Shown one piece after another: positions 19,984-59,264 of a DNA stretch of 64,000 nt (positions are counted from its first letter, which is position 1; every line of letters begins with the position of its first letter). The position numbers and the translations under genes are program-made. Origin of the DNA: Rhodococcus sp. 105337. GTDB taxonomy: Bacteria > Actinomycetota > Actinomycetes > Mycobacteriales > Mycobacteriaceae. Below the pieces are notes generated by a model. The model searched no databases. It was not told the origin of the DNA and worked only from the letters and a program-made list of their open reading frames with translations. Where the stretch lies: NCBI RefSeq assembly GCF_012844225.1, contig NZ_JABAGQ010000004.1:62001-126000 (forward strand), given 5' to 3'.

Positions 19984-21504
19984 GTGAACGAAACAGGTCG
20001 ATCCGGCACCCGGACGGTCGAGGACCCGACGGTGCGGCACGGCCGGCTCCGGCTGTTCTCCTTTGCGACCGCCGAGAAACGCACCGAATATCTGTGGGTG
20101 CTCCGGGCGTTCGATCATGCCCGCGCCAACTACGTGGTGCTGCTGCACGCAGCCGATGTCGAAGCTGTGCTCGGCCGCATCAGCGGTGACGATCCGGCGG
20201 CAGCACTGACCTCGTCGGAGATCGCTCCCCTGCTCGAGCAGTTGCACGCGTGGGGCGTGCTCGAACGCAGCTACGACGGAACCCGCGCAGCCACCCTCGC
20301 GGAGTACCGCAACCGGCACTTCGTCTACCAGTTCGGGCAGGAAGGGTTCTATGCCTTCCGTGCCGTCGACGACGTCCTGACCGGTCGCGGGCACGATGTC
20401 GCGCTGTCCCGGTTGGCGCTGGCCGATCTCCTCGCCGATCTGACCGAACTCGCCGATGCCAACGACGCCGGGGACGGCGAACTCGTGTACCGGAAACTCA
20501 ACCGCCTCGATGCGACCCTGTCGGACATGGCGGAGCGGGCCGCGCGGTTCTACCTCGTCCTGGGTGACCTGGTGCGCACCACCGAGATCACACCCGAAGT
20601 GTTTCTCACCCACAAAGACGCGCTGCTCTCGCACATGCGGGAGTTCAGTTCCGACCTCGCCCGGTACGCGCCGAAGCTCACCGCCGCCCTCGCGCGGGTC
20701 CAGGCCACCGGCGCCGCGCGGCTACCTGCCCTCGCCGCGGCGCACGACGAAAGGGTCCTGCTCTCCTACGAAGAACGCGAAGCCGACTGGCGCCAGCGCT
20801 GGCGCGGGCTCGAACACTGGTTCGCGGGCATGGGGTCGGCGCCGAGCGAATCCGAGCGGTTGCGGGAGGGCACGATGAGTGCGATCGCGGCGGTGCTGGC
20901 GCTGCTGCGCCGCCTCACCGAGACCCGCCGAGGCGGAGTGAGCCGGGAGTCGCAGTTGCGGCACCTGGCGGGATGGTTCGCTGCCGCGCCCAGCGAGGAT
21001 GCCGCGCACGCATTGTTCGGGGCGGTGTTCGACCTGGGCCGTCCCCGGCATTTCTCGGTGCCGCATTCCGACGCCGACGTGGTGCCCGCCAACCGGTCGT
21101 GGTGGGACGCACCGCCGGTCGAGATCTCCCGCACGCTGGCCGAAACGGGCCGGACACCGTCTCCCGGTGCGCCCGGCCGGGTGCACCGCAACGACGCGGC
21201 CGTGCGGCGGTTGCGTGAAGTGCAGTGGGAGAACCAGCGACGCCGTGCCGACGCGGCGCGGTCCCTCGCCTCCGGCGGCGTGCGGGACCGTGAACTCACC
21301 GAACCGGAGACCGAGGTGCTGCTCAGCCTCATCGACGCGGCGCTGTCGGCGCGGGTACCGGTGAGCGGACGCGTCCGCGGCGACGGAACGTCCGGCACGC
21401 AGAACGGCGTGAAACTCACGTTGCGGCCCAGCACCGAATCAACGGTGGTGCGCACCGCACGCGGACGGTTGTATCTGGACGCTCTCACCGTGGACGTGCA
21501 GTGA
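19984..21504 (+). CDS. jetA: Wadjet component JetA (DUF2397/TIGR02677)
   Basis: A 506-residue protein beginning at GTG. It opens with RLRLFSFATAEKRTEYLWVLRAF and contains YRNRHFVYQF and WFAAAPSEDAAHALFGAVFDLGRPRHFSV followed by VPANRSWWDAPPVEISRTL, the pattern of TIGR02677/DUF2397. In Wadjet systems JetA is the kleisin-like subunit bridging the SMC-like JetC dimer. It is the first of three overlapping genes: its stop codon overlaps the GTG of jetB. The system cleaves closed circular plasmids in other bacteria. In the usual naming the DUF2397/2398/2399 type is, as I recall, Wadjet type III. Confidence 0.88.
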   Translation: MNETGRSGTRTVEDPTVRHGRLRLFSFATAEKRTEYLWVLRAFDHARANYVVLLHAADVEAVLGRISGDDPAAALTSSEIAPLLEQLHAWGVLERSYDGTRAATLAEYRNRHFVYQFGQEGFYAFRAVDDVLTGRGHDVALSRLALADLLADLTELADANDAGDGELVYRKLNRLDATLSDMAERAARFYLVLGDLVRTTEITPEVFLTHKDALLSHMREFSSDLARYAPKLTAALARVQATGAARLPALAAAHDERVLLSYEEREADWRQRWRGLEHWFAGMGSAPSESERLREGTMSAIAAVLALLRRLTETRRGGVSRESQLRHLAGWFAAAPSEDAAHALFGAVFDLGRPRHFSVPHSDADVVPANRSWWDAPPVEISRTLAETGRTPSPGAPGRVHRNDAAVRRLREVQWENQRRRADAARSLASGGVRDRELTEPETEVLLSLIDAALSARVPVSGRVRGDGTSGTQNGVKLTLRPSTESTVVRTARGRLYLDALTVDVQ

Positions 21505-22886
21505 GAGCACGCACCATCGCGCCGCTCGACCTCGATTCGTACCAGCGCGCGGCCCGCCTGATCCTCACCCACCACCTGGTGACCTCGACGTTCCCCGACC
21601 GCACCGCCCTGCCGTTGCTGCGGCGGTGGGCCACCGAATTACGTGACGACCTGCTCGACACACTCGGCTACCGGCTCGAGGTGACCGAAACGACGGCCAG
21701 GTTGTTCACCGTGCTGGACCGGCTCGACCCGGGGGCTGGTACCGCCACCCACACCGACCGGCCCTTCGACCGGCGGCGGTATGCCTACCTCGCACTGGCC
21801 GTTGCGGCGCTCGGCCGCGCAGGTGGACAGATCAGCCTGTCCGAACTGGCCGGCCACGTAGCCGCCGATGCCTCCCGGATCGACGGAGTGGATCTGGCCA
21901 CCGACAGGGCGACGGACCGCGACGCCTTCGTCGACGCGGTGGCCTGGCTCGCGGCGCGCGGGGCGATTTCCCTCGCCGACGGTGATGCGGGTGGATGGGC
22001 GAGCGATCCCGACAGCGGCGAAGCTCTCTACGACATCGACCGGTCGGTCGTGGCGGCATTGTTCCGTCCGCCGCTGGCCCTGCAGCACCTGAACTCGGTG
22101 CGCGGTCTGCTCGCGGACCCGGCCGGCGGCGCCCACGTGTCCGACGGGCGGCGTTCCGCCGAGGCCACGCGACGGGTTCGTCGCGCTCTGATCCAGCGTC
22201 CCGTCGTCTACGCGGAGGGACTCGACGACGCCGAAGCAGTGCAACTCGCGCTGCCGCGCACCACCGCCGACCTGGAAGTGCTCACCGGACTGGTGGCGGA
22301 GCGGCGTGCGGAGGGCGTGGCCCTGGTGGACACCTCCGGTCGCCTGTCGGACGTGCGGTTCCCCGGCACCGGCACCGTCGCGCAGGTGGCACTGTTGCTG
22401 GCCGGAGAGATCTGCGACCGGGTGCTCGACCCGGATCTGCCTGCACCGCTGCGACTTCCCCTCCCCGCCGACGAGCACGACGCTCTCGTCGCGGCGGTGG
22501 ACGCAGCGATTCCACGCTCGGGGGTGTTCACCGCGTTGGCGGTGACCGGCCCACCCGACCGCGCGGACGGAGACGATCTCTCCGGAGAGCGCGTCCGGCC
22601 CGAGCACCCGATGGTCGACGATGCGTGGCTGGCGAGCACCATCCGCGGGCTCGTCGACACCTACGGCCGCACCTTCGCGGCGCAATGGCAGGCGGATCCG
22701 GCGGGCCTCACGGACGCGGCGGTGGCTCTGCTCGCGAAGCTGGACCTCGTCGCCCGGGTGCCCGGTGGCGTGCTCGCGCTGCCCGCGTCGGCGCGGTTCC
22801 GGGGCGCGACCGTCAGTGTGCGTAAACGAGATCCGCAGATCGACCTGTTCCCGGACGAGACAAGCGAGACGGAGAGTCATGAGTAG
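21501..22886 (+). CDS. jetB: Wadjet component JetB (DUF2398/TIGR02678)
   Basis: A 461-residue protein with the TIGR02678 pattern: YQRAARLILTHHLV near the start, then FDRRRYAYLALAVAALGRAGGQISLSELA and GEALYDIDRSVVAALF. JetB corresponds to the KITE (winged-helix) subunits of SMC complexes such as MukE. It begins at GTG overlapping the jetA stop and its end overlaps jetC by eight bases, so the three subunits are made in fixed proportion. No nuclease motif is visible in it. Confidence 0.88.
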   Translation: MRARTIAPLDLDSYQRAARLILTHHLVTSTFPDRTALPLLRRWATELRDDLLDTLGYRLEVTETTARLFTVLDRLDPGAGTATHTDRPFDRRRYAYLALAVAALGRAGGQISLSELAGHVAADASRIDGVDLATDRATDRDAFVDAVAWLAARGAISLADGDAGGWASDPDSGEALYDIDRSVVAALFRPPLALQHLNSVRGLLADPAGGAHVSDGRRSAEATRRVRRALIQRPVVYAEGLDDAEAVQLALPRTTADLEVLTGLVAERRAEGVALVDTSGRLSDVRFPGTGTVAQVALLLAGEICDRVLDPDLPAPLRLPLPADEHDALVAAVDAAIPRSGVFTALAVTGPPDRADGDDLSGERVRPEHPMVDDAWLASTIRGLVDTYGRTFAAQWQADPAGLTDAAVALLAKLDLVARVPGGVLALPASARFRGATVSVRKRDPQIDLFPDETSETESHE

Positions 22887-25800
22887 TGCCCGTTTCCGGC
22901 CCACCCGCGCCGGAATCATCAATCTGTGGGACTACCGGGATCAAGAGTTCTCGTTCGCGGACGGGCGCCTGGTGCTCCGTGGCCCCAACGGGTCGGGTAA
23001 GACCAAGGCCCTCGAGGTGCTGTTCCCGTTCGTGCTCGACGGGCGCATCGAACCGCGCCGGCTCAACCCGTTCGCGGGCGAAGAGCGCACGATGCGCTCG
23101 AACCTGCTGTACCAGGGGCAGGACAGCGCGTACTCCTACGTGTGGATGGAGTTCTGCCGCGGCCGGGCCGAGGACCCGGAGGCCGTCACGGTCGGGGTCG
23201 GCATGCGCGCCACGCGGGGAAACGACAAGGTCACGCGCTGGTATTTCGTCGTCGACGGACGCGTGGGTGTCGACTTCTCGTTGCTCGACACCGAAGACCG
23301 GCCGCTGACCCGGAAGCAGCTGATCGAGGAAGTCGGCGCCGACGCGGTCACCGACCGGCCGGTGGAGTACCGGGCGGCCATCGATGCGCGCATGTTCGGG
23401 CTGGGGGCGCAGCGATACGACCAATTGATCAACCTGATCCTCACGTTGCGACGCCCGCAGCTGGCGAAGAACCTCGATCCCAAGGGGTTGTCCCAGGCGC
23501 TGACCGACGGTCTCCGCCCACTCGACGATCAACTGCTGGTCGAGGCGGCCCGGTCGTTCTCCGACATGGAGGAGGTGTCGCGGACGCTCGAATCGCTGGC
23601 CGCGGCCGACGACGCGGCGCAGAGTTTCGTCGCCGTGTACTCGAACTATCTGCGGCAGCAGGCACGCTCGGAGGTCGACCAGGTGGGGATGCGTCTCGCG
23701 ACGGTCCGGGCCGCAGTCGAGGCGTTGCGCTCTGCCGTCGCCGACAGAGAAGGAGCCGCCGCCGCCCGCGCACAGGCCGAGGAAACCCTCGCCGTGGCCG
23801 AGCGCGACCTCGAACAGGCCCGCGCCAATCTCGACGCCCTGCAACGCTCCGGCGCATACGAGGGCAAACAACAACTCGACGACCTTGCGCAGGCGGTCGC
23901 GAACCTCGAACGCACCACCGCGGTGCAGGCCGAGCAGGCAGAGCGGGCTCAGAGCGCGGTCGCGCAGCGCGCCGACGAACTCGAGCGGGCCGAGTCCGCC
24001 CTCGCCGCAGCACTGTCGACGCGGACCCGCTGCGAGGATGCACTTCACGAGGCCGCCGAAGACGCGGGCATCGACTGGCACGGTGCCGAACATCTCGATC
24101 GAACCGATCGGCTCGTCGCCGCGCTCGACGCACACGCGGAAGAACGCGACGCCGACGTGCGGGCGGTGCGGGCGGCCACCGGAAGCGTGGACGCCGCTGC
24201 GGCAGCGCGCACGCGTGCGGAGGCCGCGGCGACGCGCAGTCGCGCGCAACGCGAGTCGGCCGCCGCTGCGGTGGACGCGGCGGAAACAGTGGTCGCACTG
24301 ACGCGAGCGGAGACGGCCACCGACCTGCGGACATGGTGGACAGAGCATGCGGAACGCTATGCGGTAGAGGGCATTTCGCAGGATCTGCTCGACGCGCTGG
24401 ACTCCGCGATCGCGGCCGCCGGGCAGGACGACGCCGCGACACCCGCCTCTGTGCTCGGCATCCACACGGCCCCCGCGCTCGAGGAACTCCGGTTCCGGCG
24501 ACGCGCGCTCACCTCGGAGATCGAAACACTCGGGGTGCGGATCGCGGAGTACGACGTTGAGCGGACCGAAGTGGACGCCGAACACGACGACGCTCCCCCG
24601 CCGTTCCCGGCGCGGACGGGAAGCCGGGAGTCGCTGCCGGGCGCTCCGTTGTGGCGTCTGGTGCGATTCCGCGACGACGTCACCGCAGCGGACGCAGCCG
24701 GAATCGAGGCGGCCTTGCAGGCCGCGAACGTGCTCGACGGATGGATCTGGGCGGGGAACGGCGAGTTGCCTGCCACCGAGTCGGAACAATTCCTCGTCGC
24801 GGTGCCGGCACCGCATCGGCCGTCGGGGCCGACGCTGGCCGATGTGCTGGTGCCCGAACCCGATACGGAGGTCCCCGAGCGCGATGTCGCCGCCGTGCTC
24901 GAGTCGATCGCGCTGACGTCCACACCGGCCGGCGGGGTCGCAGTGTCGGTGGACGTCACGGGCGGTTTCCGGCAGGGCACTCAGGTGGGCCGGCACGTCA
25001 AGACACACGCCGAGTTCATCGGGGCGACGGCCCGCGCACGCCGGCGACAACGACGAGTCACGGAACTCGAACGTGCGGTCGCCGAAGCACGTTCGACGGC
25101 GGAGTCGTTGCGCGAGCAGCATCGCCTCCTCGGGGACCGGCTGACCGGGCTCGACGAAGCCGCCGCCGCGGTGCCCCGCACCGGGTCGGTGCTTGCCGCT
25201 TTGCGGAAGGTCACCGAGTGCGCGGGTGCACTGCGGACGTCCACCGAGGCGGCTGCGGCCGCCGACCGCGATCTCGATCAGGCGCTGGCGGAATTCGCTA
25301 CCCGGCAGCAGCACCTGCGCTCGATCGCCGCACGACATCGCGCGCCCCACCTCCCGCAGGAACTCGACAGCCTGGACGCTGCGGTGCGGCACTTCCGCTC
25401 GCAGGGACAGGCCCTGCTGCGGGCGTTGCGAGAGCACGCCGCCACCGGCGAGCGGGTACGAGAAGCGCGGGTGCGGCTCGACGAGGCACGCCGCGTCGCC
25501 GACGAAGCCGCCGAACAATCGGCCATCTCCGAAGAGTCGTTCACCGCCCAGCGACAGAAACTCGAAACACTGCGCGACGCGCTCGGTGCCGGCGCCGACC
25601 GGATCGACGTGCAACTCGAACAGGCTCGGGCCCGGATCGAGTCTGCGAAGACCTCCCAGCGTGCCGCGCGCAAAGCGTATGAAGCGGCCATCGAGCGGAT
25701 CGGCAAGTCGGAGGCCGCGCATACCGCCGCCGAGGACACCCTGCGTTCGGCGCTGGCGGAATCCCGCGCCGACGCCGAGCGGCTGGCGCCTTTCGCGCGG

Positions 25801-27042
25801 CCGGACCTGCTGGCGCTCCTCGGGATCGAGCACCCGCACGCGTGGCCGGCGAGCACCGCGGCGTGGCTGGACACCGACCAACTGCTGTACCGGATTCAGC
25901 ACGCGGAACCCGACGCCGACGTTCCGGTCTTCCCGTCCGAGGTGCAGGCGCTCTTCCGTTCGCTGGCAGCGGCGACGGCAACGGTCACCGCCAGTGAATC
26001 GGCTCGCAAGTCCACGCGCACCGCGCTCGCCGCTGCCGTGCAGGAGTTCGATACGGAACTCGCGCGTAGTCAGGACTACCGGTTGCAGTGGGATGCGCCC
26101 GACGGGCTGACCGTGGTGCAGGTGCAGGACGAACAGGGGTACTCGTCGGTCGGGCAGTTCGCGGTGCGTATCGCGCACGCTCGTCGCGAGCAGGAGTTGC
26201 TGCTGACCGACTCCGAGCGCCGCATCCTCGAAGATGCCCTGCTGGCGGCTCTGTCCCAGCAGATCCACGAACGCACCGTCGACGCACGAGACCTGATCGC
26301 ACGCATGGGTGCCGAGATGCGGCAGCGGCACATGTCCTCGGGCAACACGATCGGCGTGCACTGGGTGCTCGCGGACGATCTGGACGACCCGGCGCGCGCG
26401 GTCTGCAAACTGCTCGACCGCGACGCTGCGGCGCTGTCGGCGGACGACCTCGCCGGCATCCGGGCGCACTTCGCATCCCGGATCCGTGCGGAACGAGCCG
26501 CGCATCCGGAGCGCTCCTACCCGGAAATCCTTGCCACGACCCTCGATTACCGCCGTTGGCGGGTGTTCTCGTTCAGTCTCATCGGCGCGGACGGGAGCGA
26601 CGACAAACTCACACCTGCGCGGCATTCGGCGTTGTCGGGCGGTGAGCAGTCGGTGTCGCTGCATCTGCCGTTGTTCGCGGCGGCGCACGTGATGCTCGAT
26701 TCCGCGGATCCGCATGCGCCGCGGTTGCTGGCGTTGGACGAAGCGTTCGCGGGCGTCGACGACACGGGGCGAAGCGAGTTGCTCAGTCTGTGTGTGCAGT
26801 TCGACCTGGACTTGTTCATGACCGGATTCGACCTGTGGATCACGTACGCCGGTGTTCCCGGTTGCGCGCACTACGACCTGTCGCATTCGGTCGCCGAGCA
26901 CACCGTTGCCGCGACGCTGCTGGTGTGGTCGGGCGGGGAACTGCTGGCCGAGCACGACGGCTCGGACCTCGCAATTGCGTTGGGATCCCCCGGTACCCGG
27001 AAGGTGGCGCAGCCGGTGGAGGGGTCACTCGAATTCGTCTAG
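22879..27042 (+). CDS. jetC: Wadjet component JetC, SMC-like ATPase (TIGR02680)
   Basis: A 1387-residue SMC/MukB-type ATPase. The N-terminal head starts RFRPTRAGIINLWDYRDQEF with Walker A LRGPNGSGKT (Lys41). A very long Ala/Glu/Arg-rich coiled coil fills roughly residues 240-1130, interrupted near the middle (around residues 560-700) by a more globular hinge-like segment. The C-terminal head carries the signature ALSGGEQSVSLHLPLF and Walker B RLLALDEAFAGVD. In Wadjet this motor extrudes plasmid DNA loops that JetD then cuts. The ATG at 22879 overlaps the end of jetB. All ATPase motifs look intact. No jetD follows. Confidence 0.9.
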   Translation: MSSARFRPTRAGIINLWDYRDQEFSFADGRLVLRGPNGSGKTKALEVLFPFVLDGRIEPRRLNPFAGEERTMRSNLLYQGQDSAYSYVWMEFCRGRAEDPEAVTVGVGMRATRGNDKVTRWYFVVDGRVGVDFSLLDTEDRPLTRKQLIEEVGADAVTDRPVEYRAAIDARMFGLGAQRYDQLINLILTLRRPQLAKNLDPKGLSQALTDGLRPLDDQLLVEAARSFSDMEEVSRTLESLAAADDAAQSFVAVYSNYLRQQARSEVDQVGMRLATVRAAVEALRSAVADREGAAAARAQAEETLAVAERDLEQARANLDALQRSGAYEGKQQLDDLAQAVANLERTTAVQAEQAERAQSAVAQRADELERAESALAAALSTRTRCEDALHEAAEDAGIDWHGAEHLDRTDRLVAALDAHAEERDADVRAVRAATGSVDAAAAARTRAEAAATRSRAQRESAAAAVDAAETVVALTRAETATDLRTWWTEHAERYAVEGISQDLLDALDSAIAAAGQDDAATPASVLGIHTAPALEELRFRRRALTSEIETLGVRIAEYDVERTEVDAEHDDAPPPFPARTGSRESLPGAPLWRLVRFRDDVTAADAAGIEAALQAANVLDGWIWAGNGELPATESEQFLVAVPAPHRPSGPTLADVLVPEPDTEVPERDVAAVLESIALTSTPAGGVAVSVDVTGGFRQGTQVGRHVKTHAEFIGATARARRRQRRVTELERAVAEARSTAESLREQHRLLGDRLTGLDEAAAAVPRTGSVLAALRKVTECAGALRTSTEAAAAADRDLDQALAEFATRQQHLRSIAARHRAPHLPQELDSLDAAVRHFRSQGQALLRALREHAATGERVREARVRLDEARRVADEAAEQSAISEESFTAQRQKLETLRDALGAGADRIDVQLEQARARIESAKTSQRAARKAYEAAIERIGKSEAAHTAAEDTLRSALAESRADAERLAPFARPDLLALLGIEHPHAWPASTAAWLDTDQLLYRIQHAEPDADVPVFPSEVQALFRSLAAATATVTASESARKSTRTALAAAVQEFDTELARSQDYRLQWDAPDGLTVVQVQDEQGYSSVGQFAVRIAHARREQELLLTDSERRILEDALLAALSQQIHERTVDARDLIARMGAEMRQRHMSSGNTIGVHWVLADDLDDPARAVCKLLDRDAAALSADDLAGIRAHFASRIRAERAAHPERSYPEILATTLDYRRWRVFSFSLIGADGSDDKLTPARHSALSGGEQSVSLHLPLFAAAHVMLDSADPHAPRLLALDEAFAGVDDTGRSELLSLCVQFDLDLFMTGFDLWITYAGVPGCAHYDLSHSVAEHTVAATLLVWSGGELLAEHDGSDLAIALGSPGTRKVAQPVEGSLEFV

Positions 27043-27437
27043 CCACGTGCAGGCGGCGGGCCCGGTTCCACAGTCACCGCACGGAGATCGGATCGCCCCT
27101 GGTACAGCAGGCCCAGCGAACCGATCTCCGTGCGGCGAGTGCGAATTCGGCGACCGAAGCAGGTACGCAATTAGTTTCGCGAACATCGCAAATGTGCCGG
27201 CGTGGATTCCACGATTCACTACCGAAGCCGGCTCATTATCCGAAACCCCTTCCGGGCCAAAGAAAACCCCGGCTATCTTCGCCGATTGTGTAATGAACAT
27301 CGAATTTCCCACGATGATCGGGGCATGACACACCCGCACGGATCGGTCTCCGCAATACCCACCGGCCTCGTCGGGGCATCACCGAACACCCGCTCTCCTA
27401 TTCCGGATCGAATCTCACCGAACCGAAAGGAAACACC
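27043..27437. other. Intergenic stretch after jetC, no jetD
   Basis: No gene is seen in these ~395 bases. The expected fourth Wadjet gene (DUF2399/TIGR02679, a Toprim-type nuclease of ~400 residues) would normally start here, but neither an open frame nor a recognisable fragment was found. The stretch contains the large inverted repeat at 27077-27135 and, toward its end, a moderately AT-rich region and a GAAAGGAAACACC ribosome-binding site for the secreted-protein gene at 27438. Confidence 0.6.
27077..27135. repeat. 15-base inverted repeat with 29-base loop downstream of jetC
   Basis: CCGCACGGAGATCGG at 27077-27091 is exactly complementary to CCGATCTCCGTGCGG at 27121-27135. In RNA it would form a strong stem 34 bases after the jetC stop. 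It lacks a following T-run, so it is an unusual terminator, if it is one; a protein-binding site or the scar of a lost element are alternatives. Confidence 0.6.
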
Positions 27438-27935
27438 ATGCGCGTCTCCACACGGCTTTCGATTCTGACCGGTACGGCGCTCGCCGCCGCCGGTGTGGCG
27501 GTAGCGGGAGCGCCCGCCGCCGCAGCCGACCCAATCGGCCCCACGCTGACCTCTGCTCCGATCTCCGTTTACCAAATTCCCGCTGTCGGCGTGCAGATCA
27601 CCGGACTCGGACTTCCGGATCTGCTCTTCTCCTCTGTGAACGCCTCGTCTCCCGGAAAGGGCCGGACGACCTTCACCCTGCCCGTGAGCGACGCCCCGTG
27701 CTGGACCAGCGCTGCGCTCACGCTCGTCCGCATCAACTATGTGAATCTGGCGAACGGCACCAGCGGCTCCACGAGCTTGCGGCCCTGCACGCCATACGGT
27801 TCACTGCCCGATGCGCCCACGGTCGACACCGGATCGGGACCCGTCGCCATCACCGTCGCCATCGTCGGGGCCGAGGGCTACCCCAATGCCGGACAACCGT
27901 CGCTCCCCGGTATCGGAGGTTTCGTCGCTCCCTGA
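27438..27935 (+). CDS. Secreted protein of unknown function
   Basis: A 165-residue protein with a clear signal peptide (residues 1 to ~30, ending APAAAADP). The mature part is rich in Gly, Ser, Thr, Pro and Val with two Cys residues (APCWTS and LRPCTPYG) that could form a disulfide, and is predicted to be mostly beta-structure. No catalytic motif is visible. Small exported proteins of this type are frequent in Rhodococcus. The start is supported by an AAAGGAAA sequence nine bases upstream. It is a single gene. Confidence 0.75.
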   Translation: MRVSTRLSILTGTALAAAGVAVAGAPAAAADPIGPTLTSAPISVYQIPAVGVQITGLGLPDLLFSSVNASSPGKGRTTFTLPVSDAPCWTSAALTLVRINYVNLANGTSGSTSLRPCTPYGSLPDAPTVDTGSGPVAITVAIVGAEGYPNAGQPSLPGIGGFVAP

Positions 27936-28082
27936 CTCTCCCCGGCGGCATGAGCGCGCCCGATCCGCGCATTCGTCCCGGGTCTATACAGTGGCCCTGC
28001 AACGGTGTGATGCGCCGCGTCGTGTCCCCGGACTGTTTCCGGTCCGGGGCACGAGGGTGCCGGGGGTCGGTCGAGCAGGGGA

Positions 28083-28442
28083 ATGGAGTCGGCGGGAGTG
28101 CGAGCAACCACGGTCAAGTTCGCTCGCGAGCGGTTGGGTGCGCTGGTGCGCGAAGTCAACGACGACACCGTCGCGGTCGAGATTACCGGGAAACACCATG
28201 AGGCAGTGCTGATCTCGAAGAAGCGATATCTCGCGCTGCAGGAGGCCACGTTTCTCCTCCGCTCACCCGAACTCATGGACAGTCTCCGCAAGGAGATGGC
28301 GCGTTCGCTTCTCGAAGAACACTCGACCACCGCGCCGGACGGCGCCACCGACAAGGCCGAGAAACCGAAAACACCCGCCCGGCGTCCGCCACGCGCGCGC
28401 TCCCGCAAGCAGCGGAAGAAGAAGCGGAAGAAAGCCGACTAG
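28083..28442 (+). CDS. Phd/YefM-type antitoxin-like protein with basic tail
   Basis: A 119-residue protein. Residues ~8-70 match the Phd/YefM fold (TTVKFARERLGALVREVNDDTVAVEITG, then EAVLISKKRYLALQEATFLL). The last ~45 residues are disordered and extremely basic, ending with runs of Lys/Arg (RKQRKKKRKKAD). Antitoxins of this family repress their own operon and bind a RelE- or Doc-type toxin, but no toxin gene lies next to it: downstream is a small membrane protein on the other strand. It may be an orphan regulator. A GTG at 28098 is an alternative start. Confidence 0.75.
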   Translation: MESAGVRATTVKFARERLGALVREVNDDTVAVEITGKHHEAVLISKKRYLALQEATFLLRSPELMDSLRKEMARSLLEEHSTTAPDGATDKAEKPKTPARRPPRARSRKQRKKKRKKAD

Positions 28443-28454
28443 CGCCGACACGTC

Positions 28455-28670
28455 CTACGGGTTGTTCAGCCGGGCGCGATAACCGAAGAACACCACCGAG
28501 ACCAGTCCTGCAGCGATCATCGAGCCGCCCACAGTCGTGGGAATGTCCGGACGAAAAGCGACGACCACGCCACCTATCGCGAGCACCGCTCCGAATGTTG
28601 CCAGCCAGATCGCGATCGCGGCGGCACGCCCTCGCGCTGCCCGGGCCGTGTCGTCATGATCGTTCGCCAT
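28455..28670 (-). CDS. Small membrane protein (two helices)
   Basis: A 71-residue protein with two hydrophobic helices (about residues 19-40 and 46-66) separated by a short loop (RPDIPTTVGG). The N-terminus is hydrophilic with several Asp and Arg residues. It belongs to no family I can name; similar short proteins are common in Rhodococcus and Nocardia. It converges with the antitoxin-like gene, 12 bases between the two stop codons. Confidence 0.65.
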   Translation of the reverse strand: MANDHDDTARAARGRAAAIAIWLATFGAVLAIGGVVVAFRPDIPTTVGGSMIAAGLVSVVFFGYRARLNNP

Positions 28671-28770
28671 CGTTCACCGCAATCAGGGTTGTTCGCCGGA
28701 CGACCCGAGCAACTCGAACGGGTCACGGCACAGGATCGCAGGTTGTGTCGAGCAATGCACCCCTCGAGGG

Positions 28771-29328
28771 TTACCGGCGCGGTTCGTATCGCATTGCCAC
28801 GGTGCCCGCACCGAATTCGTGCCGGTCCAGGAAGCGCAATTCGAGGGGCTTCGACAACCCCGCGAACAACGTCGGTCCGTGGCCGGCGACCCTGGGCTGC
28901 ACCACGAACTCGTACTCGTCGATCAGCCCCAGTTCGGCCAACGCCAACGGGAGTCGCACGCCTCCGACGAACAGACCGTTGGGCGCTTCCTGCTTGAGTT
29001 TCCGCACCGCCTCGGCCAGGTCCCCCTGTACGAGTTCCGCGTTCCAGTCGACACTCGGGAGCGTGCTCGACACGACGTACTTCTTCGCTGCGTCGATCGT
29101 CCGGGCGAACGGGTCCGTCCATTCGGGATTCTCTGCCGACGACGGCGACAATCGCCACGCCGACTCCATGAGTTCGTACGTCACGCGGCCGAAGAGCAGC
29201 GCGTCGGCCCGCTCGAGGTTCGCGGTGTGGTGGCGGTGCAACCCCTGCAACTCTTCCTCCGCAGGCACCGCGCGATGATCGCAGCATCCGTCCAGAGTGA
29301 TGTTGATGGAGTACCGGAGTAGTCCCAT
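28771..29328 (-). CDS. Dihydrofolate reductase-fold (RibD C-terminal) protein
   Basis: A 185-residue protein of the RibD C-terminal/DHFR-fold family: YSINITLDGCCDH at the start, LLFGRVTYELMESAW in the nucleotide-binding region, KYVVSSTL and NGLFVGGVRLPLALAELGLIDEYEFVVQPRVAGHG at the end. Family members are NADPH-binding reductases of unknown substrate, found widely in actinomycetes. The ATG at 29328 gives the usual start MGLLRYSI; an upstream in-frame ATG at 29352 adds eight unlikely residues. A related gene is encoded divergently at 29470. Confidence 0.8.
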   Translation of the reverse strand: MGLLRYSINITLDGCCDHRAVPAEEELQGLHRHHTANLERADALLFGRVTYELMESAWRLSPSSAENPEWTDPFARTIDAAKKYVVSSTLPSVDWNAELVQGDLAEAVRKLKQEAPNGLFVGGVRLPLALAELGLIDEYEFVVQPRVAGHGPTLFAGLSKPLELRFLDRHEFGAGTVAMRYEPRR

Positions 29329-29469
29329 CGGCCGAGAATACGTGAGAGGCAAGTGCCGTTCCGGCGCTTCGGCTGCACCGATAGAAGAAGATGCCGAGTG
29401 TGCGATGAGTATGCCTGCCCGGCACGGTCTACTTCTTCGACCGAGGAACTACGACGGGGAGGTGGGGGC

Positions 29470-30114
29470 ATGGGCCTCATCGAGATCGAACTGTTCACCA
29501 CGCTCGACCTCGTCGGGCAAGCGCCCGGCGGCCCCGAGGAGGACCCGGAAGGATTCCCGTTCGGCGGCTGGCAAGCACCCCTGCTCGACGCGGTGACCGG
29601 AGCGCAGATCGGTGCCGCGTACGAGGGCACGGACGCACTCCTTCTCGGTCGTCGAACCTATGACGTGTTCGCCGCATACTGGCCCCACCAGAAAGGCGGT
29701 GAGGACAGCGAGATCGCCACCTTGTTCAATTCGGTTCCGAAGTATGTGGCTTCCCGCGGCAACCCCGACCTGTCGTGGGCGGGGTCCACGAAGCTTGGGC
29801 CCGATCTGGTCGCCGCGGTGCGCGAGGTCCGCGACCGGCACGAGCACATCAAGGTCGTCGGAAGCCTGAATCTGGTGCAGACCCTCCTGCGCGAAAAACT
29901 CTACGACCGCCTCGACCTCTGGGTGCACCCGATCGTGCTGGGGGTCGGGAAGAAGCTGTTCGACGGCGGCGGGGTGCCCACGAACCTCACCCTCCTCGCG
30001 CCACCGGTCGCCGATCCGAAGGGCACCGTCTATCTGCGCTACGAACTCGCCGACGGCACACCGGAAACCGGCGACATGAGCGCACCCGATCGCGGGGTGG
30101 AGCCCGGAGCCTGA
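29470..30114 (+). CDS. Dihydrofolate reductase-fold (RibD C-terminal) protein
   Basis: A 214-residue relative of the preceding gene, with LLLGRRTYDVFAAYWP (nucleotide-binding region), VPKYVASRG and HIKVVGSLNLVQTLLREKLYDRLDLWVHPIVLGVGKKLF. Its C-terminal ~20 residues are a disordered extension. The two paralogs are divergent with 141 bases between their start codons and share little sequence beyond the family pattern, so they are probably not a recent duplication. The substrate is unknown. Confidence 0.82.
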   Translation: MGLIEIELFTTLDLVGQAPGGPEEDPEGFPFGGWQAPLLDAVTGAQIGAAYEGTDALLLGRRTYDVFAAYWPHQKGGEDSEIATLFNSVPKYVASRGNPDLSWAGSTKLGPDLVAAVREVRDRHEHIKVVGSLNLVQTLLREKLYDRLDLWVHPIVLGVGKKLFDGGGVPTNLTLLAPPVADPKGTVYLRYELADGTPETGDMSAPDRGVEPGA

Positions 30115-30151
30115 CACCCGTACGCGCCCCGGCCCGTGAGTTTCGGGGTGC

Positions 30152-31810
30152 TCACGGTTCGGCGACCGTCAGCACTCCGGATTCGTCCACCACATCCAGC
30201 GACAACGTGCGGTATCCCTCGGTGTCGAACAGAACGGTGACGCGGTCGTGCTGGGCACTCAGCACCACGCCCCGGCCCCAGTGCTCATGGACGACGGGCG
30301 TCTCCGGCGAGAGCGGTTCGCCGGCGATGGTCGATCCGGCGTCCGGTGCAAGGTCCGGCACGACCCCGGCCACGCAGTTGTCACACGTACCGCAGGGGTC
30401 GGGGATTGTCTCGCCGAAGTAGCCCAGCAGGAATTGCCGACGGCAACCACGTGTCTCCGCGTAGCCACGCATCATCTCGACACGTGACCGGTCGAAGCGT
30501 TCGCCGGCTTCCGCGGCGTCCCTCGCACGCTCGAGTGCCCGGCGCGCAGTGAGATCGGCAGCGATGAACCCACGGCGACCTCCGACGATCACACCGGCCC
30601 GCTCCAGGAGGTTCGCCGCGTTCGCGAGCCGCCGCCCTCGGTCACCGAGTTCCTCGCGTATCCGTCCGAGCCGCACAGGGCCCGATGCGCGAACCACGGC
30701 GAACACCCGCGAGATCAAGTCGTCGTCCGGCGAGTGCGTGGTGAAGAAGGTGGCGAGGGAAAGATCCTCCGTCCGGTAGAACATCGAGACGGTCGCTCGC
30801 TCCCCGTCCCGGCCCGCACGTCCGATCTGCTGGTAGTAGGAGTCGATCGAGTCGGGCACGGACGCGTGGACGACGAACCGAACGTCAGGCTTGTCGATCC
30901 CCATGCCGAACGCAGAGGTCGCCACCACCCCCTCGCAGGTGCCGTCGAGGAATCGTTCGTGCACGTCGTGGCGCTGCTGTGCGGGCATGCCGGCGTGATA
31001 GGCACAGGCGCGGATGCCGCGTTCGGCGAGACTCTCCGCGTAGCGCTCGGTGTCCTTGCGCGTAGCCGCGTACACGATGCCGGGCCCCTCGAGGGACACC
31101 ACCTCGTCGATGACCGCGCGACGTTTCTCCGCGTCCTCGATGTGGCGGTGCACCGCGATATCGAGGTTCGGTCTGTCGAATCCGCCGGCCACCACGACCG
31201 GGTCGCGCAAGCGCAGCGCACCGACGATGTCGTCGCGGACCGGGGGCGAGGCCGTGGCGGTGAGGGCCGCCACGGGCGGTCGTCCGAGACGCTCGAGCGC
31301 ATCGGCGAGCCGCAGATAGTCCGGCCGGAAGTCGCTGCCCCACACGGAGACACAGTGCGCTTCGTCGACCACCATCAGTGCGACGCGCACGTCGCCGAGG
31401 CGCTCGATCACCTCGTCCTTCGCGAGTTGCTCGGGCGAGACGAAGACGTAACCCGCTTCGTGCCGGCTCACCGCCTGCCAGTTGGACTCGTTCTCCGCCG
31501 CACGTTGCTTGGAATTGATCGCCATTGCCTTCGGGGCGCTCGTGGAGTCCAGGAAGGCGATCTGATCGTTCTGCAACGCGATCAGCGGAGACACGATCAC
31601 GGTCACTCCCGGAAGCAGCAACGACGGGATCTGGTAGATCGCGGACTTGCCGTAACCCGTGGCCAGCACCGCGAGAACATCACGACCGTCGAGGAGCGGC
31701 ACCATCGCGTCGAGTTGTTCGGGGTGCAGTGTCTCCCATCCGAACACGCGCCGGGCGGCGTCCTCCAACCTGTCGCGGGGATCGCTCGTCGAAGAGGAGT
31801 TCACGGACAC
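30152..31810 (-). CDS. recQ: RecQ-family ATP-dependent DNA helicase
   Basis: A 552-residue superfamily 2 helicase that unwinds DNA 3'-5' during repair. Motif I is VLATGYGKSAIYQIP, motif II VVDEAHCVSVWGSDFRPDY (DEAH), motif III ALTATA and motif VI QQIGRAGRDG. The zinc-binding four-Cys module is present (GCRRQFLLGYFGE then CGTCDNC). The C-terminal region after it is short and has no HRDC domain. A GTG start at 31810 with GGAG six bases upstream is chosen; the open frame extends to 31876. Confidence 0.9.
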   Translation of the reverse strand: MSVNSSSTSDPRDRLEDAARRVFGWETLHPEQLDAMVPLLDGRDVLAVLATGYGKSAIYQIPSLLLPGVTVIVSPLIALQNDQIAFLDSTSAPKAMAINSKQRAAENESNWQAVSRHEAGYVFVSPEQLAKDEVIERLGDVRVALMVVDEAHCVSVWGSDFRPDYLRLADALERLGRPPVAALTATASPPVRDDIVGALRLRDPVVVAGGFDRPNLDIAVHRHIEDAEKRRAVIDEVVSLEGPGIVYAATRKDTERYAESLAERGIRACAYHAGMPAQQRHDVHERFLDGTCEGVVATSAFGMGIDKPDVRFVVHASVPDSIDSYYQQIGRAGRDGERATVSMFYRTEDLSLATFFTTHSPDDDLISRVFAVVRASGPVRLGRIREELGDRGRRLANAANLLERAGVIVGGRRGFIAADLTARRALERARDAAEAGERFDRSRVEMMRGYAETRGCRRQFLLGYFGETIPDPCGTCDNCVAGVVPDLAPDAGSTIAGEPLSPETPVVHEHWGRGVVLSAQHDRVTVLFDTEGYRTLSLDVVDESGVLTVAEP

Positions 31811-31922
31811 GAAGGCTCCTGTCTGCGGGGTAGGGGCTGTCCACGGGATGGGGCAAACCCGGCCTACCCCGAGCACCCCGGCGCAAACGGCCTTCTTCGG
31901 AGAATCGCAGTCGTTCGAGGAC

Positions 31923-31947
31923 GCGGTTCAGGGGTACCCGACCGCAT
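31923..31947 (+). promoter_or_regulatory. GGGTACCC element, repeated at 59681
   Basis: A 25-base sequence, GCGGTTCAGGGGTACCCGACC followed by GCAT, which recurs with only two differences at 59681-59705. It contains the palindrome GGGTACCC and the hexamer GGGTAC, which matches the -10 of SigF/SigB-type general stress promoters in mycobacteria; a GTTC lies 15 bases upstream as a possible -35. It precedes the SDR gene by 38 bases. A stress-type promoter is the likeliest reading. Confidence 0.5.
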
Positions 31948-31985
31948 CACACGTGCACAGCACGTCACGACTCGAGGAGGAAGTC

Positions 31986-32768
31986 ATGGCTGGAACTCGT
32001 CCGTTGGCGCTGGTGACCGGCGCTTCGCGAGGTATCGGATTCGAGCTGGCGAATCTGTTTGCCGAGAACGGTTACGACCTGACGGTCGCCGCCTCGTCGG
32101 AAGCGATCCACGACGCCGCCGGCGAATTGCGGAGGCGGGGCGTCTCGGTGAACCCGGTCCAGGTCGATCTGCGCACCGAGGACGGAGTGCGCGCGCTCTA
32201 CGATGCGGTCGTCGCCGACGGGCGGCCGCTGTCGGCCGCAGCACTCAACGCGGGGGCCGGGGTGGGGGGCGCATTCGTGGACGCGGACCTCGAGGATCTG
32301 CTGTCGGTGGTCGACCTGGACGTGCGCTCGACAGTGCATCTCGCGCGTCTGGTGCTGGCCGACATGGTGCGCGCCGGGGAGGGTCGTGTTCTGATCACCT
32401 CGTCGGCGGTGTCGAAGATGCCCGGTCCGTACCAGGCGGTGTACAACGCGTCGAAAGCATTCGTGCAGTCCTTCGCGGAGGGAGTGCGCAACGAACTGCG
32501 CGACAGCGGTGTGACCGTCACGGCGATGCTGCCCGGAGCCACCGACACCCAGTTCTTCGCCCGCGCGGGTCTGCTCGACACCGTGATGGGCAAGGCTCCC
32601 AAGGACGACCCCTCCGTCGTCGCGAAAGACGGGTACGAGGCGCTGATGAGAGGCGACCGCAGTGTGGTCGCGGGATCGCTGCTGACGAAGTCGCTCGCAG
32701 CACTCACTACCGTGACACCGAAGCCGGTGACCACCGCCCTGAACCGCGTCATCGCGAACCCCCGCTGA
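31986..32768 (+). CDS. Short-chain dehydrogenase/reductase
   Basis: A 260-residue classical SDR. The cofactor motif is TGASRGIG (residues 11-18), NAGAGVGG follows, the catalytic Ser lies in LITSSAVSK, and the active-site YNASK motif is intact. Such enzymes oxidise or reduce hydroxyl/keto groups with NAD(P)H; the substrate is not predictable. The ATG is preceded by GAGGAGGAAG. A stress-promoter-like element lies upstream. The gene is divergent from recQ. Confidence 0.88.
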   Translation: MAGTRPLALVTGASRGIGFELANLFAENGYDLTVAASSEAIHDAAGELRRRGVSVNPVQVDLRTEDGVRALYDAVVADGRPLSAAALNAGAGVGGAFVDADLEDLLSVVDLDVRSTVHLARLVLADMVRAGEGRVLITSSAVSKMPGPYQAVYNASKAFVQSFAEGVRNELRDSGVTVTAMLPGATDTQFFARAGLLDTVMGKAPKDDPSVVAKDGYEALMRGDRSVVAGSLLTKSLAALTTVTPKPVTTALNRVIANPR

Positions 32769-58851: not shown

Positions 58852-58937
58852 GTCCGAGTGGCGGAATGGCAGACGCGCTAGCTTGAGGTGCTAGTGTCCT
58901 ATTAACGGACGTGGGGGTTCAAGTCCCCCCTCGGACA
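58852..58937 (+). tRNA. tRNA-Leu (anticodon GAG), copy 1
   Basis: An 86-base type II tRNA. The acceptor stem GTCCGAG pairs with CTCGGAC, the anticodon loop TTGAGGT gives anticodon GAG, a long variable arm (TGTCCTATTAACGGACG) follows and the T arm reads GGGGGTTCAAGTCCCCC. CCA is not encoded. A terminator hairpin follows at 58960. Confidence 0.95.
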
Positions 58938-58959
58938 CTCTGCGTTGAGACAGACGATG

Positions 58960-58989
58960 AAGGCCCCGAACCGCAAGGTTCGGGGCCTT
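58960..58989 (+). terminator. Terminator after tRNA-Leu copy 1
   Basis: AAGGCCCCGAACC and GGTTCGGGGCCTT form a perfect 13-base stem with a GCAA tetraloop, 22 bases after the tRNA. Confidence 0.85.
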
Positions 58990-59149
58990 TGTCGTGGTGC
59001 CGGCAGCTCCCGGTTCGTGGCTCCCGATCGGCCCCGACGGCCGTTCCTCCGCGATGTCGAGGCGTTTTGGGAATCGGCCCCGGCATGCGCTACTGTTTCT
59101 TCAGCGCCCGCGGGAGCGGGTGCTACCGGCATGTCCCTCGTGGACGTCG

Positions 59150-59235
59150 GTCCGAGTGGCGGAATGGCAGACGCGCTAGCTTGAGGTGCTAGTGTCCTAT
59201 TAACGGACGTGGGGGTTCAAGTCCCCCCTCGGACA
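59150..59235 (+). tRNA. tRNA-Leu (anticodon GAG), copy 2
   Basis: Base-for-base identical to copy 1, 298 bases downstream. The upstream flank is also partly conserved: CAGCRCCCGC with GGAGCGGG occurs before both copies, so the promoter region was duplicated together with the gene. Confidence 0.95.
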
Positions 59236-59264
59236 CTCCCGGCAGTTCCACGAACTGCAACCAC

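Follow-up and report, generated by a model that had tools for sequence, protein, structure and literature searches.

The 64,000-nucleotide stretch of Rhodococcus sp. 105337 analysed here (contig NZ_JABAGQ010000004.1, positions 62,001 to 126,000; hereafter the window) contains a jetABC operon of the Wadjet type from which the nuclease gene, jetD, is absent. JetA, JetB and JetC together match the type II subunit families (family and PADLOC models), and comparison with related genomes makes it very likely that a type II Wadjet locus has lost JetD while its JetABC motor is still under selection. The history of JetD loss is well supported by these comparisons, while for the function we infer that the operon probably encodes an SMC motor of type II Wadjet descent that has no nuclease and is kept for a non-cleaving DNA role, by analogy with MksBEF. 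The same loss in many relatives suggests that the motor is useful without cutting.

An earlier sequence-only reading had described jetA, jetB and jetC as intact and overlapping, with all ATPase motifs of JetC present and no nuclease gene in the 395-base gap that follows, and in all of this it was correct: the frames are open, jetA and jetB overlap by 4 bases and jetB and jetC by 8 bases, and the Walker A, signature and Walker B motifs were found (Table 1). The best score of a clean JetD profile in the gap (27043-27437) was -2.3, where 50 base shuffles reached 1.9, and the profile scored -1.7 in 27043-32000. A JetD remnant in the gap was rejected because its score was no better than those of the shuffles. 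The genome-wide check proposed at that time likewise found no JetD, with zero matches to PF09983, PF09664 and TIGR02679 at E<=1e-3 across the whole genome (4.46 Mb, 34 contigs), and a JetD acting in trans was rejected on the same three families. Built-in controls gave no signal for PF09664 and TIGR02679, and the same models detect JetD in relatives; PF09983 was detected in Corynebacterium glutamicum and not in the window genome. A recent strain-level deletion or an assembly gap was also rejected, as JetD is also missing from R. coprophilus (L103) and from 15 of the 17 genus members examined beside the window genome (R. coprophilus possibly counted among those 15).

All 18 genomes analysed in the genus carry a JetC orthologue, three of them just as a piece at a contig end. 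TIGR02679 matches 2/18, both directly 3' of jetC and one split over two frames, and PF09664 picks the same two. In a draw of 301 genomes from the family, DUF2397 was found in 131, of which 129 lie above the cut-off and 39 of these have JetD, counted by either of two models, TIGR02679 and PF09664, which agreed. A draw across the phylum (396 genomes) gave 30 DUF2397 genomes above the cut-off outside the family, 25 of them also with PF09664; three of the other five have partial JetA matches only, and none of the three family genomes with JetA in this draw has JetD. The share of JetA-bearing genomes with JetD is lower inside than outside the family (39/129 vs 25/30; Fisher exact p 1.3e-7, which is only a guide because the genomes are related). 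These counts are per genome and not per locus, the phylum figures being hand-counted from tables. Judged by profile matches, they show the JetD-less state to be common in the family and not peculiar to Rhodococcus sp. 105337.

A scan of named genomes confirmed 177 relatives, the best 80 of which were used as loci, and all JetD counts at these loci use the clean JetD profile. JetD lies directly 3' of jetC in 16/77 testable loci and was not found within the flank in 61/77 (L077, L097 and L108 were dropped for flanks that are too short; L101 was counted with a 730-base flank). JetD-bearing loci are those of Rhodococcus sp. SMB37 (L031), R. tibetensis (L036), 13 members of the Rhodococcoides fascians group and Antrihabitans stalactiti (L076), and JetD-less loci include R. 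opacus, R. qingshengii, R. ruber, Prescottella equi and 27/27 testable Nocardia loci. Two comparisons reveal an empty site. R. kyotonense L078, which has jetD, and L057, which lacks it, match as far as the jetC stop and then again 3' of jetD (7.8 kb at 83%). For R. tibetensis (L036, with jetD) and R. koreensis (L042, without), the match ends a few bases short of the jetC stop and picks up again in the final bases of jetD (7.9 kb at 83%). L031 and L032 make no clean pair, with about 4.5 kb of different sequence in the JetD-less L032 where L031 has jetD. The gene mshC lies within the 3' flank in 33/81 loci, 12 with JetD and 21 without, so these 33 loci occupy the same chromosomal place; syntenic 3' neighbours are the mshC, SCO1664-family, MSMEG_4193-family and uppP genes. 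An unusual gene order, with jetD upstream of jetA on the same strand, was seen in three genomes of the family (L167, L168 and L172). The jetA frame is broken in two jetD-bearing loci, at L050:7037-8539 (a metagenome assembly) and L053:7032-8533, by either sequencing error or decay.

Ratios of amino-acid-changing to silent substitution rates (dN/dS; Nei-Gojobori with Jukes-Cantor, own script) indicate purifying selection, at 0.01-0.20 in ten pairs of JetD-less loci: 0.013-0.198 for jetA, 0.046-0.193 for jetB and 0.032-0.153 for jetC. Between the window and R. coprophilus the values are 0.082, 0.178 and 0.144, respectively. Four pairs of JetD-bearing loci, all from one clade, gave 0.074-0.191 for jetB and 0.056-0.075 for jetC, and three of them 0.046-0.055 for jetA (the L083/L050 jetA pair, of only 34 codons, was ignored, and L050 and L053 were omitted from the jetA alignment). 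Two mixed pairs gave 0.157 and 0.068 for jetC. The jetC gene of JetD-less pairs tends to be slightly less constrained and is far from neutral. The low ratios bear out the earlier argument that three intact genes speak against simple decay, for which this substitution test had been suggested. JetC distance relative to that of MshC is 1.60 in the JetD-bearing group and 1.62, 1.89 and 3.02 in three JetD-less groups. Of 16 JetD-less lineages, 92-94% on average retain the alignment columns common to the four JetD-bearing ones, and an eroded JetD-binding surface was not found in the JetD-less lineages. By such measures JetABC is not in decay, and no remodelling of the motor is visible.

The 11 JetDs of this locus cluster as one clade (support 100/99) in a tree of 42 JetDs, and its neighbours from outside are those that the JetC tree (41 rows) also shows, which makes JetD ancestral to the locus and fast-evolving. 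The broad JetD tree holds 42/44 JetDs, with 9 of the 16 named JetD-bearing loci, and the broad JetC tree 41/43 JetCs; L154 and L163 were omitted from both, and L161 has no usable JetC. L097 and L099, with partial JetC, were omitted from the JetC tree and from the motif count, and L077 and L108 from the loss count. Placed on the JetC tree, the presence of JetD requires at least 5 changes. If regain is disallowed, 14 losses are needed under a JetD-bearing common ancestor and 15 with a Streptomyces outgroup, with which equal-cost parsimony gives a minimum of 6 changes, losses and gains mixed, and a JetD-bearing root. In the Streptomyces plasmid relatives (JetC about 49%), a profile search found JetD 3' of jetC in 4/4 stretches, and the annotation of two outgroup plasmids includes a full JetABCD set. 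L138 and L139 are large linear Streptomyces plasmids with complete type II JetABCD; a Wadjet system on a linear plasmid is not expected to cut its own carrier.

Whatever the function, the history could instead be a single JetD loss in the ancestor of the family with regain in about four lineages, which we consider unlikely. In its favour, equal-cost parsimony needs 6 changes, losses and gains mixed, where losses alone need 15, and the JetDs of the four lineages are almost as distant from one another (39-51% identity) as from Streptomyces JetD (37-45%); for JetC the corresponding figures are 61-70% and 45-48%. These distances suggested reacquisition of JetD from outside, but the JetD and JetC trees do not support it: the JetDs of the locus form a single clade, whose sister groups match those of JetC, they lie at the same site 3' of jetC, and gain from outside was not seen. 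JetD exchange within the family is possible for SMB37 or Antrihabitans. The correlation of JetD and JetC distances (Pearson 0.985, Mantel 0/2000) comes mostly from one clade (13/16 rows) and is not relied on; with outgroups it is 0.75.

Several points weigh against JetD loss with a selected motor, or against its details. A JetD supplied in trans would also fit if it were encoded on sequence absent from the 34-contig assembly. The JetDs of SMB37 (L031) and Antrihabitans (L076) pair (98/93), contrary to the JetC tree. Either JetD exchange inside the family or a long-branch artefact could explain this, which leaves the loss count uncertain. The 3' flank of the window beyond the end of jetC has no blastn match to L031, L032 or L033, its next relatives after R. 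coprophilus; because only the end of jetC is shared with these, the loss in the window itself is read from the tree. For jetC, dN/dS exceeds 0.075 in 7/10 JetD-less pairs, against 0.056-0.075 in the four one-clade JetD-bearing pairs, so slight relaxation is possible. MshC-relative distances span 0.9-3.4, and JetC of one JetD-less group is at about twice the value of the JetD-bearing group, the two others being close to it. Finally, JetABC carries no change specific to the JetD-less lineages: since these keep the residues of the JetD-bearing ones, neither a new interface nor loss of a JetD-binding surface is apparent.

JetABC would assemble as a kleisin-KITE-SMC dimer that loads onto DNA and extrudes loops with ATP. 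In the view of a review, the JetABC part of Wadjet extrudes DNA, and JetD cuts once extrusion is complete (PMC10586767); without JetD, the complex would extrude or bridge DNA and then stall or fall off, with no cut. Looping itself would be what is selected, most likely for chromosome organisation or segregation alongside Smc-ScpAB, as for MksBEF of Pseudomonas aeruginosa. That the motor is active without the nuclease appears likely, and a specifically chromosomal role is suggested tentatively, by analogy. A broader proposal, which is more doubtful, is that the Nocardiaceae use the type II Wadjet motor as a core SMC complex of the chromosome, selected mainly for a nuclease-independent role, with JetD an optional weapon dropped some fifteen separate times; if true, these losses would be natural replicates of the change from a plasmid killer to a chromosome-organising condensin.

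The sequence-only reading had left three options open: an inert locus, a different effector, or an SMC complex used for something other than cutting. The comparative data favour JetD loss with a motor kept for non-cutting use and speak against inertness. Decay of an inert locus since JetD loss seems very improbable: in its favour, JetD has disappeared, jetC dN/dS of JetD-less pairs is on the whole above that of the four JetD-bearing pairs and one JetD-less group evolves faster relative to MshC, but all ten JetD-less pairs remain under purifying selection, the only broken jetA frames among 81 loci are in two JetD-bearing ones, the ATPase motifs are intact in 79/79 JetCs, and the locus is retained in 18/18 genomes of the genus. 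It is improbable that another part of the genome encodes an unrecognised nuclease with which JetABC still destroys plasmids. Any genome is expected to encode other nucleases, Toprim and non-Toprim, and JetABC looks unchanged after JetD loss, yet none of the three JetD families has a match here. A same-strand gene lies within 150 bp of jetC in 13/61 JetD-less loci (approximate gene call), and a search for a replacement effector found no gene family common to more than two of these 13; the calls came from a rough codon-position-GC script, which missed at least the 165-amino-acid open reading frame that follows jetC in the window. This frame has no family match and is followed by a Phd/YefM-like antitoxin gene (28083-28442; no toxin gene was searched for beyond the family scans). 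About equally improbable is a role in which JetABC recognises small circles and affects them with no cut, for example by compaction, silencing or lower plasmid copy number. Deletion of MksB in C. glutamicum raised plasmid copy number, with the nuclease present there (PMC10123090), and an R. erythropolis strain with a three-protein Wadjet_II entry (subunits unnamed) has three circular plasmids (PMC12915292). The reading preferred here is still that of a nuclease-free motor with a non-cleaving role.

Loss of JetD by a Wadjet system is already in print for the Pseudomonas complex, and conversion between defence and chromosome-organising SMC complexes is an open question (PMC10586767, section 7). 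Among the open-licence papers that the literature searches listed, none describes in its title or displayed abstract a type II Wadjet without JetD from Rhodococcus or Nocardia. The family supplies matched strains with and without JetD, two pairs having the same 8-kb surroundings, and a nuclease-independent job of the Wadjet motor is therefore directly testable. Caution is warranted where Rhodococcus JetABC calls may be scored as anti-plasmid defence though the cutter is absent: in the R. erythropolis table, Wadjet_II is given with three proteins (PMC12915292), and 73% of 97 Rhodococcus genomes are stated to encode Wadjet, a restriction-modification system and either Eleos or PD-T4-3 (PMC10482375), a source whose main text does not contain the name JetD.

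The features of the locus are listed in Table 1. The start of jetC (ATG 22879) was picked by comparison; the open reading frame list gave 22621, an in-frame ATG upstream within jetB. Kleisin and KITE roles of JetA and JetB are taken from family names and a review, and the type I and type II labels of the subunit families, the PADLOC names excepted, are those we take to apply. The fold of 27040-27160 has a z-score of -5.0, with 0/200 shuffles equally good, and the hairpin after jetC probably marks the transcript end.

Table 1. Features of the jetABC locus in window coordinates
Feature	Position	Strand	Evidence
jetA, kleisin-like subunit, DUF2397, 506 amino acids, GTG start	19984..21504	+	TIGR02677 235 bits, PF09660 465, PADLOC JetA2 601; frame intact
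jetB, KITE-like subunit, DUF2398, 461 amino acids, GTG start	21501..22886	+	TIGR02678 139 bits, PF09661 227, PADLOC JetB2 688; frame intact
jetC, SMC ATPase, 1387 amino acids, ATG start	22879..27042	+	TIGR02680 756 bits, PADLOC JetC2 1414
Walker A of JetC, GPNGSGKTK	22981..23007	+	identical in 79/79 JetCs compared
ABC signature of JetC, ALSGGEQS	26629..26652	+	intact in 79/79 JetCs
Walker B of JetC, RLLALDEAF	26722..26748	+	RLLALDEAF in 69/79 JetCs, RLLGLDEAF in 10/79
Gap at expected jetD start, 395 bases, without jetD or detectable remnant	27043..27437	.	profile search vs shuffles
Strong hairpin directly 3' of jetC	27062..27150	+	35-nt arms 27062-27096/27116-27150, 80% complementary

The genome contains a second, diverged JetABC locus (G000:C34:112180-118912; L131:8147-14939), also without JetD. 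Its JetC' is 28-34% identical in two pieces, with adjoining DUF2397 and DUF2398 genes and then a convergent thiolase gene. JetC' has the Walker A motif GTNGSGKS, with ISQGET for the LSGGEQ and VLLDDAF for the LALDEAF of the first locus; the same motif set occurs in 5/6 loci of the second type, and in the sixth (L137) none was found by the same patterns. The JetC' ATPase may work differently. Elsewhere in the window, 58852-59236 holds two tRNA-Leu(GAG) genes with equal scores and starts 298 bases apart.

Among known systems, complete type II Wadjet (JetABCD; DUF2397, DUF2398, TIGR02680 and TIGR02679/DUF2399), such as nvJET of Neobacillus vireti, shares three subunit families, gene order and overlaps with the window locus. 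In a sequence search, PDB 9qe0, presumably nvJET, was matched by JetC (E 5e-75) and JetA (E 6e-14); JetB had no match to PDB sequences at E<=1. Complete type II Wadjet differs in having the JetD nuclease, for which the window locus and genome have no match, and plasmid restriction by the known mechanism is not expected because JetD is missing. Of the earlier label, Wadjet-type anti-plasmid operon, the first half fits the type II subunits and the second is unsupported for the JetD-less form. PADLOC demands all of JetABCD, and three-gene sets of the MukFEB-like kind are placed by it in the category 'other' (PMC9252829). As to Wadjet type I or MksBEFG, PF09983 is absent from the genome and the subunits best match type II, not type I, families. 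In the related actinobacteria C. glutamicum and Mycobacterium smegmatis, MksBEFG and EptABCD, respectively, are Wadjet systems of four genes including a nuclease (MksG of MksBEFG is DUF3322 + DUF2220), unlike the window locus. MksBEF of P. aeruginosa is likewise a three-subunit Wadjet-like SMC complex without a nuclease beside a canonical SMC, and it organises and segregates the chromosome (PMC7485682). It is MukBEF-like according to a review, whereas the window locus is type II. With MksBEF-like complexes the window locus shares an operon that encodes SMC, kleisin and KITE subunits but no nuclease, an intact ATPase under purifying selection, and coexistence with a canonical SMC, whose gene in this genome lies at G000:C31 (TIGR02168, 980 bits).

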